A DNA stretch of 64,000 nucleotides. Origin: an uncultured Bacteroidia bacterium (GTDB lineage: Bacteria; Bacteroidota; Bacteroidia; NS11-12g; UBA9320). The stretch covers positions 1-64,000 of the forward strand of contig CALSTB010000001.1 in NCBI GenBank assembly GCA_943789165.1. The letters are read 5' to 3'. This document shows, one piece after another, positions 14,209 through 47,420 of this stretch (positions are counted from its first letter, which is position 1; each line of letters starts with the position of its first letter). The translations under genes and the position numbers were made by a program. The notes under the pieces are model-generated. The model ran no database searches, had not been told where the DNA came from, and was given only the letters and a program-made list of their open reading frames with translations.

Positions 14209-15090
14209 ATGACTAAAGCATACGTATTTCCAGGACAAGGCGCGCAATTTTCAGGCATGGGTAAAGAACTATATGATTCTAATCCGGATGCAAAAGCCTT
14301 GTTTAACCAAGCAAATGACATTTTAGGATTTCCTATTACTGACGTGATGTTCAGTGGTTCGGATGACGATTTAAAAGAAACCAAAATCACTCAACCCGCT
14401 GTATTCTTACACTCGGTTATTTTGGCCAAAACCATGGATGATTTTACTCCTGGCATGGTTGCCGGACATTCATTGGGAGAAATATCTGCTTTGGTTGCGG
14501 CGAATGTCTTGAGCTTTGAAGATGGTTTAAAACTCGTTAGCATTAGAGCACTTGCTATGCAAAAAGCCTGTGAGCAAAATCCATCTACAATGGCCGCCAT
14601 TCTTGGTTTAGAAGACGCTGATGTAGAAGCAGTGTGTAACGGTATTTCTGATGAAGTAGTGGTCGCCGCAAACTATAACTGTCCAGGACAATTGGTAATC
14701 TCTGGAAGTAATGAAGGCATACGAATTGCGTGTGAGCAATTGTTAGAAAAAGGCGCTAAACGCGCTTTGCCATTACCTGTAGGGGGTGCATTTCATTCTC
14801 CTTTAATGGAACCAGCGAGAGCTGAATTGGCTGCTGCTATAACCAATGCTACGTTCAATACACCATCATGTCCGGTGTACCAAAACGTATCAACCGTTGG
14901 TGAAACAGATCCACAAACGATTAAGGACAACCTTATTGCTCAACTTACTGCCCCTGTAAAATGGACACAGAGCGTTCAGAACATGGTGGCTGATGGCGCT
15001 TCAGAATTTATTGAAGTCGGCCCGGGTCGCGCACTTCAAGGTATGATTAAGAAAGTTGATCCTGCGTTGGAGGTGAGTGGGGTTTCTTAA
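14209..15090 (+). CDS. fabD: Malonyl-CoA:ACP transacylase
   Basis: YVFPGQGAQFSGMGKEL, AGHSLGEISALVAA, GGAFHSPLMEPA, EVGPGRALQGMIKK. Confidence 0.97.
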   Translation: MTKAYVFPGQGAQFSGMGKELYDSNPDAKALFNQANDILGFPITDVMFSGSDDDLKETKITQPAVFLHSVILAKTMDDFTPGMVAGHSLGEISALVAANVLSFEDGLKLVSIRALAMQKACEQNPSTMAAILGLEDADVEAVCNGISDEVVVAANYNCPGQLVISGSNEGIRIACEQLLEKGAKRALPLPVGGAFHSPLMEPARAELAAAITNATFNTPSCPVYQNVSTVGETDPQTIKDNLIAQLTAPVKWTQSVQNMVADGASEFIEVGPGRALQGMIKKVDPALEVSGVS

Positions 15091-15315
15091 TTCTTAATTT
15101 TGAATTCTTAATGTTTAATTGGAGGTTTTAGATTCTGAGTTCCGCAATTAGCCTACACGTCATTCAGAGGGGTTGACGTCAGGAAAGCCCTCGCTGTCTG
15201 CTAATTCATGCTCACCGTCATTCAGAGCATCCGAGGTCACGAGGATGTGAAGAATCTCCGCATGGAGGTTTATTCGAACAATTACGACAACGCAGTACTA
15301 TGTTGCTATAAATTA

Positions 15316-15639
15316 ATGCAACTCATGTTTACAGCCAAAGGTGGCTTTACCTACATCATTTCAAATCAGTTTGGATCCGTACTGTACATTGGCGTTACAA
15401 GTGACATCAAGCACCGTTTATGGCAGCACAGAACCAAGTTTTATCCAGCCAGCTTTTCAGCGAAATACAATCTATCAAAGTTGGTTTTTTATAAGTTCTT
15501 TGGTGATATAACCGAAGCCATAGACTACGAAAAATACTTAAAGGGTAAAAGTAGGAAGTTCAAAGAGAATGTGATTTCGGAGCTTAACCCACAATGGCAT
15601 GACCTCACAAATGAAATAGACAACTTGGATCTGTTGTGA
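15316..15639 (+). CDS. GIY-YIG domain nuclease-like protein
   Basis: GGFTYIISNQFGSVLYIGVTSDIKHRLWQHR ... LSKLVFYKFFGDITEAIDYEKYLKGKSRKFKENVI; the ORF-track start at 15208 lies within repeat sequence, so ATG 15316 or 15325 is preferred. Confidence 0.88.
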   Translation: MQLMFTAKGGFTYIISNQFGSVLYIGVTSDIKHRLWQHRTKFYPASFSAKYNLSKLVFYKFFGDITEAIDYEKYLKGKSRKFKENVISELNPQWHDLTNEIDNLDLL

Positions 15640-15886
15640 GATTCTTCGCTGCGCTCTGAATGACGCGTAGCATAGTTAATGCCCGACTTGAGTATTGCCT
15701 AGTTCATAAAACCGACGACTATCAACAGTACAAGTCCTGCTCAAATAGATTCTTCGCTACGCTCTGAATGACGCGTAGCATAGTTAATGCCTGACCTGAG
15801 TATTGCCTAGTTCATAAAACTTACAACTAACAACAGTTCAAGTACTGTACAAATAGATTCTTCGCTGCGCTCTGAATGACGCGTAG
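15640..15886. repeat. 108-bp tandem repeat, two full copies plus a partial third
   Basis: GATTCTTCGCT(G/A)CGCTCTGAATGACGCGTAG starts at 15640, 15748 and 15856. Confidence 0.95.
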
Positions 15887-15910
15887 CCAAATAGTTGCCC
15901 ACAAGTAAAT

Positions 15911-18169
<2,259 letters not shown>

Positions 18170-47160: not shown

Positions 47161-47347
47161 ACGGCGTCCGCCGGCTGGCGGAGTGACACATGGATTTTCC
47201 CGAAAATCCAGACATAAAAAAAGACCCAACCGTAGTTGAGCCTTTTTCGTGGTGTGGGGCGTCCGCCGGCTGGCGGAGTACGACACATGGATTTTCACTG
47301 AAAATCCAGACATAAAAAAAGACCCAACCTAAGTTGAGCCTTTTTTG
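47161..47347. repeat. Two tandem degenerate copies of the tRNA-Phe 3' half plus terminator
   Basis: TCCGCCGGCTGGCGGA at 47167 and 47262, each followed by ACACATGGATTTTC...GAAAATCCAGACATAAAAAAAGACCCAACC...GTTGAGCCTTTTT.GTGGTGTGGGGC. Confidence 0.92.
47314..47346 (-). terminator. Probable terminator downstream of tRNA-Phe
   Basis: Reverse strand GGCTCAAC-TTAG-GTTGGGTC hairpin (with G-U pairs) followed by a T tract. Confidence 0.65.
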
Positions 47348-47420
47348 TGGTGTGGGGCGGGTTTGAACCGCCGACACATGGATTTTCAGTCCATTGCTCT
47401 ACCAACTGAGCTACCGCACC
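47348..47420 (-). tRNA. tRNA-Phe (anticodon GAA)
   Basis: Cloverleaf from reverse complement GGTGCGG TA GCTC AGTTGGTA GAGC A ATGGA CTGAAAA TCCAT GTGTC GGCGG TTCAAAC CCGCC CCACACC A; one acceptor-stem mismatch (C5-A68); CCA not encoded. Confidence 0.95.

Follow-up and report, generated by a model that had tools for sequence, protein, structure and literature searches.

The stretch of DNA considered here, referred to as the window, comprises the first 64,000 nucleotides of a contig from an uncultured Bacteroidia bacterium. The first-pass annotation, made from the letters alone, had placed in it a GIY-YIG nuclease gene bracketed by inverted copies of a dispersed repeat, and this arrangement is real: the protein matches the GIY-YIG family in Pfam (PF01541, E 6.9e-14), with two forward copies of the repeat upstream of its gene and three reverse copies downstream. 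The inverse copy that had been put at 15640 is indeed present, with the corrections that it starts at 15639 and that there are three inverted copies, not one. The features of the locus are as follows.

15158 to 15202, + strand: upstream CGTC repeat 1 (CGTCATTCAGAGGGGTTGACGTCAGGAAAGCCCT...), with a degenerate 3′ arm (sequence count)
15216 to 15257, + strand: upstream CGTC repeat 2, long form (sequence and genome-wide pattern)
15325 to 15639, + strand: GIY-YIG nuclease gene, 104 aa (Pfam, homologue alignments, structure model)
15639 to 15665, − strand: downstream inverted CGTC repeat 3, short form, 27 nt, with a 1-base overlap with the stop codon
15747 to 15773, − strand: downstream inverted CGTC repeat 4, in unit 2 of a 108-bp tandem array
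15855 to 15881, − strand: downstream inverted CGTC repeat 5, in the partial unit 3 of the same array
15639 to 15887, no strand: the 108-bp tandem array, 2.3 copies, bearing repeats 3–5

The motif CGTCATTCAGAG occurs five times in the 64-kb window, always at this locus (+ strand, 15158 and 15216; − strand, 15654, 15762 and 15870), against 0.25 copies expected by chance, and none of 100 shuffles reached five. Its downstream inverse, AGATTCTTCGCTGCGCTCTGAATGACG, starts at 15639, the last base of the stop codon, and again at 15747 and 15855. All five window copies start with CGTC, the unpaired 5′ foot of a hairpin, and in the upstream repeats this CGTC points outward. Repeat 2 reads CGTC-ATTC-AGA-GCATCC-GAGGTCACGA-GGATGT-GAA-GAAT-CT. 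Chance or artefact as the source of these repeats is ruled out by the shuffles together with the genome-wide counts given below, and a known RNA family is ruled out by the lack of any Rfam match in window positions 15000–16000. Another tandem repeat, with a 98-bp unit and the palindromic core GTCCGCCGGCTGGCGGA, lies at 47163–47359 and is unrelated in sequence to the CGTC repeats.

An open reading frame of 143 aa can be read from the ATG at 15208 and passes through the upstream repeat; because homologues begin at the ATG at 15325, the latter is the true start, giving 104 aa, and the longer frame is over-extended. Residues Y10, Y21, G23, R31 and E69, which include the catalytic Tyr, Arg and Glu, are invariant in alignments of the clade to which this protein belongs. 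The structure model, built from 18 sequences (pLDDT 92, pTM 0.84), has as its nearest folds the UPF0213 protein 1zg2 and then Slx1, and the only sequence relatives in the PDB are 1zg2 and 1ywl. Slx1 and Slx1-like enzymes are nucleases that resolve branched DNA, and the GIY-YIG superfamily hydrolyses DNA without a covalent intermediate. A 2006 survey of this superfamily groups small prokaryotic proteins with Slx1, gives neither genomic context nor role for the bacterial Slx1-like/UPF0213 proteins, and poses the question whether additional members “may function as molecular parasites” (PMC1564403).

Anatomy and dispersal of the CGTC hairpins

The description of the repeat as dispersed is borne out across the genome: allowing up to one mismatch, the 12-mer GTCATTCAGAGC is found at 46 places in the 3.13-Mb genome, against 3 for the reversed control, and the structured pattern GTCATTCNGA-N1-31-GAAGAATC at 42 places, against 0 for its control. 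The general form of the repeat is CGTC-[AT..stem]-loop-[..AT]-CT. Copies from this genome and its congeners follow GTC-ATTC-AGA-[variable stem]-GA(C/G)GNNA(G/C)GA-like loop-[stem]-GAA-GAAT-C(T), with the short form GTCATTCAGAGCGNAGCGAAGAATCT; the long form found here has a stem of 4 bp plus 5–6 bp around an AGA/GAA internal loop, and a CT(C) tail. Other Bacteroidota keep the same outline with other stems, namely GTC-ATGCTGAACTTGTTTCAGCAT-C, GTC-ACCCTGAACTTGTTTCAGGGT-C and CGTC-ATTGCGAG..GAAGCAAT-CT, while a stem of 8–9 bp, a loop of 4–5 nt and a CCA-like tail are present at proteobacterial loci (e.g., CGTCATCCTCGGGCTTGACCCGAGGATCCA) and nearly so in a type with a CTGAA–TTCAG stem. A link between these repeats and the ultra-stable DNA loops of the GNA and GNNA kind is conceivable.

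By standard DNA folding energies, neither the window region nor single elements differ from their shuffles, so minimum-free-energy folding was dropped as evidence, and for this reason the claim that the repeats are hairpins rests on compensatory changes. Between copies of the genus, paired stem changes convert G-C to A-T, C-G to G-C and T-A to A-T, and 71 of 75 stem cells are Watson–Crick in the 15 distinct elements of the CTGAA–TTCAG type. A genome-wide pattern in which the partner positions were left free returned all four Watson–Crick types; among its distinct sequences, 16 of 21 are Watson–Crick at the free N–N pair and 21 of 21 at the Y–R pair. The matches of this pattern were tallied by eye, so only distinct sequences are relied on.

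GTC-tagged perfect stems of at least 7 bp number 98 in 61.5 kb of gene flank and 54 in 508 kb of control sequence, i.e., densities of 1.6/kb against a background of 0.11/kb. The first base of these stems is A (0.50) or T (0.47), and 91 of the 98 in the flanks are followed by CT or CC, a feature that was not part of the search. A conserved hairpin with an unpaired 5′ GTC and a 3′ CT or CC is thus shown; a role for these tags is inferred. Many copies in one genome, G144, are paired as CGTC> about 23 bp <GACG, with unlike arms, and such units are much like REPINs. GIY-YIG genes were also seen inside kilobase-long tandem arrays, with units of roughly 110–170 bp, at two loci (L274, and L275 at G255:C1:1479000-1493500).

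One nuclease clade and its repeats

The window's genome encodes two nucleases of the clade, the window gene and one at C10:21018, which are 55% identical and have repeats on both sides; no GTCATTC-type repeat was found near the four other PF01541 matches of this genome, which include an exonuclease fusion and UvrC. The UvrC-like match (L036, G000:C5:156172-156411) contains a stop and short frames, so this uvrC is either broken or mis-assembled.

According to a profile search, 167 of 297 Bacteroidota genomes contain members of the clade, up to 12 per genome. A set of 121 clade genes was picked by profile score, without regard to genomic context. Of these, 72 (60%) have a GTC-tagged hairpin no more than 250 bp away on each side, compared with 1 of 175 neighboring ORFs at least 0.9 kb away, none of 121 shuffled flanks, and 5 of 25 genes from other GIY-YIG subfamilies. 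It is a limitation that the labels for repeat type and the criteria for hairpins were fixed only after some loci had been viewed. A tag-blind test is free of it: when the two flanks of a gene are aligned locally with each other, 99 of the 121 clade genes show a repeat scoring at least 15, against 0.3% (inverted) and 2.5% (direct) of control windows from the same loci. About 20–40% of clade genes have no detectable hairpin on both sides. The same association appears from the side of the repeats, in that 33 genomes carry at least five CTGAA–TTCAG repeats and 32 of them have a clade gene (Fisher p = 8e-8, uncorrected for phylogeny); in some genomes, e.g., G001 and G002, repeats occur without a detected clade gene.

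The first-pass annotation had proposed to test whether paralogous GIY-YIG genes are repeatedly flanked, and flanking is seen for both clade members here and for roughly 60–80% of the 121 elsewhere, against about 1% of neighboring genes. It had also named as refuting the absence of any association between repeats and GIY-YIG genes in this and related genomes; an association was found when this was examined, and the idea survived. The association is confined to one subfamily and does not extend to UvrC, to the exonuclease–GIY-YIG protein or to two further small GIY-YIG genes in the window's genome. No universal rule of repeat orientation is supported either: the nearest upstream hairpins are 49 forward and 36 reverse, the nearest downstream ones 39 and 41, and at some loci, such as L117, L131 and L146, the tags point inward.

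Other small genes from 50 of the clade-bearing genomes provide further controls. Hairpins with GTC tags on both sides were found at none of 30 genes for four-helix TIGR02436 proteins in these genomes and at none of 22 DUF559 nuclease genes, which rules out that any small gene in a repeat island would show the pattern. The same search addresses the explanation that another enzyme, such as a Y1/RAYT transposase, mobilizes the repeats and that the GIY-YIG association is passive. Y1 genes do occur in 46 of the 50 genomes, this one included, and RAYT cuts at a CT next to hairpins (PMC8266576), a dinucleotide that follows the CGTC hairpins too. However, none of 27 Y1 genes has GTC-tagged hairpins in both flanks, and a 2013 survey found no Y1 genes associated with CGTC repeats either (PMC3733652); RAYT was therefore rejected as the mobilizer, and the explanation as a whole retains only a marginal chance of being correct.

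Several observations on neighboring gene families were made along the way. The DUF559 (Vsr-like) genes (L292-L320, and L290:963-1373) have flank repeats of their own in 14 of 22 cases, with the different palindromes CCCTCTCC..GGAGAGGG and TGTCCCTCC..GGAGGGACA, and possibly represent another nuclease–repeat pairing; one DUF559 gene of Sphingomonas parapaucimobilis lies between sufB and sufC. TIGR02436 four-helix-bundle genes (L239-L268), present in 10 copies in the window's genome, have flank repeats of the AGTATTTAGTATT or AGTCNTGAGTCGTGAG type in 13 of 30 cases. A sister GIY-YIG subfamily (L044 and other lower-scoring loci, L045, L049 and L060) also has flank repeats, e.g., GTACCCTGAGCGTAGTCGAAGGGTAC around L044, and members of another small GIY-YIG subfamily (L031, L057, L118) adjoin tRNA genes, the L057 frame crossing a tRNA-like stretch. 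Finally, the stretch from repeat to start codon of many Bacteroidota clade genes (L164, L171, L190, L194, L205 and others) contains TGTAAGGA...(T)CTTACTNA, an inverted GTAAG/CTTAC and a possible operator or attenuator.

The type of repeat follows the phylogeny of the nuclease. Gene pairs from different genera share a flanking repeat in 0.8% of cases at 40–45% protein identity, 12% at 50–60% and 30% above 60%, and in a Mantel test of identity against repeat sharing none of 2000 permutations reached the observed contrast. A tree of 123 proteins accommodates four repeat types with 12 changes, against a mean of 43.5 for shuffled labels, and 0 of 200 shuffles were as low. Paralogues within one genome mostly have unrelated repeats: different types accompany L171, L144 and L187 of G122, and likewise L164 and L143 of G134. 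One G122 gene belongs to the CTGAA–TTCAG clade and another to a GCGAG clade, and two alphaproteobacterial genes group beside Bacteroidota genes that share their CCGC-GNA-GGCGG type.

These results bear on the proposal that the gene is mobile by other means or has been domesticated, the repeats being bidirectional terminators or insulators, or the protein a host enzyme for trimming or containing repeat hairpins. Such roles are conceivable, given that the repeats abut the stop codon in the window, that Slx1-like nucleases resolve branched DNA, and that termination and mRNA stability are reported functions of REPs (PMC3733652). By itself, however, the proposal predicts neither that repeat type should track the nuclease clade across genera, nor outward tags at the element ends, nor a lack of such repeats next to other small mobile genes, and we regard it as improbable.

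The pairing of nuclease and repeat recurs in Alpha-, Beta- and Gammaproteobacteria and in Cyanobacteria, with named examples coming from a search of plasmid and chromid records in which each locus was read directly. A flanked clade gene on pNL2 of Novosphingobium aromaticivorans has a 31-bp perfect inverted CGTCGCCCCGTGCTTGACACGGGG..., and that of Neisseria gonorrhoeae has CGTCATTCCCGC..GCGGGAATCC on both sides. Further flanked clade genes belong to Sinorhizobium meliloti, Rhizobium CIAT894, Sphingobium, Azospirillum lipoferum, Aeromonas caviae and Planktothrix, while that of Photobacterium has a repeat downstream only. Several of these species had already been named as carriers of CGTC REPs (PMC3733652).

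Insertion sites and possible mobility

An autonomous transposable element should appear as a unit with defined ends at unrelated sites, and this expectation is met. Two loci from different Bacteroidota genomes (L091 and L092; 430 and 410 bp) are identical at 367 of 409 aligned bases, with a likeness that starts at ACGTC and stops at GACG and with unrelated outer flanks; two copies lying 1.1 kb apart in genome G145 are likewise alike from CGTC to GACG and not beyond. Target-site duplications or a recent de novo jump were not recognized in the few cases examined.

The gene of A. lipoferum 4B lies with its repeat pairs between sufB and sufC, where three relatives that are 95–97% identical at this locus have a spacer of 88–130 bp with neither gene nor repeats; repeats and gene therefore appear together. 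Similarly, in four congeners of the window's genome fabD adjoins icd and the nuclease gene is missing, the spacer containing no repeat in three of them and a lone degenerate repeat in the fourth (G002). The insertion sites at suf and fabD–icd are lineage-specific; the base-exact insertion point remains unresolved for this genus and for Azospirillum, the spacers being too diverged.

The main rival is homing, in which the nuclease cuts CGTC repeats and its gene is copied by break repair into pre-existing pairs, so that the repeats are targets that spread otherwise. It would account for the position of the gene between repeats, and it can point to gene-free pairs, CGTC>(about 23 bp)<GACG, in the same outward orientation, to the lone repeat in the G002 spacer, and to the existence of GIY-YIG homing endonucleases (PMC1564403). 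Against it are the three Azospirillum relatives with neither gene nor repeats and the three of four congeners that also lack a repeat at fabD–icd; moreover, it is unusual for homing to target hairpins present in many copies, and the protein lacks an additional DNA-binding domain. The suf and fabD–icd comparisons lean against homing without excluding it, and we hold it to be unlikely.

We consider it probable, with good though not full confidence, that the locus is instead a REPtron-like element, in which a single-domain GIY-YIG gene takes the place of RAYT between cognate CGTC hairpins, and the dispersed repeats are its non-autonomous offspring. These offspring would be found singly, paired as CGTC>..<GACG, or arrayed in tandem. 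The nuclease may recognize the hairpin as a folded single strand or a cruciform, probably during replication, which is inferred in the absence of binding data. It would then cut at the hairpin foot by the CGTC and CT tags with the hydrolytic chemistry of GIY-YIG enzymes, as a structure-specific, Slx1-like endonuclease, the activity itself being an inference as well, after which host repair or ligation is presumed to finish copying or excision. Joining must come from host functions, because GIY-YIG enzymes, unlike the HUH enzyme RAYT, make no covalent DNA intermediate. That the enzyme cuts or spreads the repeats is an inference, and no cleavage, binding or movement has been observed; the clade is nonetheless the best candidate so far for the spreader of the CGTC palindromic repeats.

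A broader generalization, to which we incline only slightly, is that these loci form a new class of bacterial transposable element, at about 0.4 kb one of the smallest autonomous kinds, whose CGTC hairpins are mobilized by a stand-alone GIY-YIG nuclease with no covalent intermediate, and whose diversified cognate pairs coexist within one genome and across several phyla. Such a class would explain the origin of the CGTC REPs, the Neisseria repeats of the form CGTCATTCCCGC..GCGGGAATCC included, and would take its place among several nuclease–repeat pairings (RAYT, GIY-YIG, DUF559). As dispersed repeats, CGTC palindromes are widespread among Alphaproteobacteria, in Neisseria and among Bacteroidota, and the clade offers a specific, testable candidate enzyme for them, with cognate and non-cognate enzyme–repeat pairs ready-made inside single genomes. 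If the reading is true, it gives a function to the very common annotation “GIY-YIG nuclease family protein”, it means that the same hairpin-repeat lifestyle was taken up independently by nucleases of two unrelated folds, HUH and GIY-YIG, and it suggests that transposition can proceed with no covalent protein–DNA intermediate.

Comparison with known systems

CGTC REPs and GIY-YIG proteins are each known; as to their pairing, no paper linking GIY-YIG with REP, CGTC or dRS3 was found in the open-access literature, subscription papers and preprints being outside the scope of the search. Di Nocera et al. described CGTC-tagged REPs in 2013 in species that include N. aromaticivorans, A. lipoferum, S. 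meliloti and Neisseria, and also in Bacteroidetes, found no associated enzyme, and stated that they “apparently lack a dedicated transposase” (PMC3733652). The repeats described here share with them the unpaired 5′ CGTC, in place of which TGTC is also admitted, a stem that is nearly always AT-first, a short tail, the occurrence of dimers and the intergenic location. They differ in having the GIY-YIG clade as their associated gene, in the far greater variety of stems and loops in the Bacteroidota set, and in the long form of the window's genome, where the stem is in two parts and the loop 10 nt long.

As to the protein, the single-domain Slx1-like/UPF0213 proteins (1zg2, 1ywl) have the same minimal fold, whereas the present clade has an invariant C-terminal Asn that Slx1-like members lack (PMC1564403). 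Homing endonucleases of the I-TevI type are likewise selfish GIY-YIG nucleases; unlike them, the clade has neither an intron nor an extra DNA-binding domain, and it is associated with multi-copy hairpin repeats and not with one allelic site. MITEs resemble the dispersed repeats in being short and non-autonomous with an autonomous relative, but no long terminal inverted repeats or target-site duplications were seen here, and the units are single tagged hairpins.

The comparison made in the first-pass annotation, with RAYT transposases and REP/BIME sequences, proved apt, and the nuclease clade tracks the repeat type. Both in RAYT (TnpAREP) with its GTAG REPs (REPtron, REPIN) and in the present system, inverted copies of a tagged hairpin enclose a small nuclease gene, offspring are dispersed, paired units point their tags outward, the repeat type is specific to the enzyme clade, and a CT stands beside the hairpin. 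For RAYT, cleavage at this CT and the role of GTAG are experimentally established (PMC8266576). The present system differs from it in its unrelated fold (GIY-YIG and not HUH/Y1) and in its tag (CGTC and not GTAG), and, with no covalent intermediate expected, it would require a different transposition chemistry.
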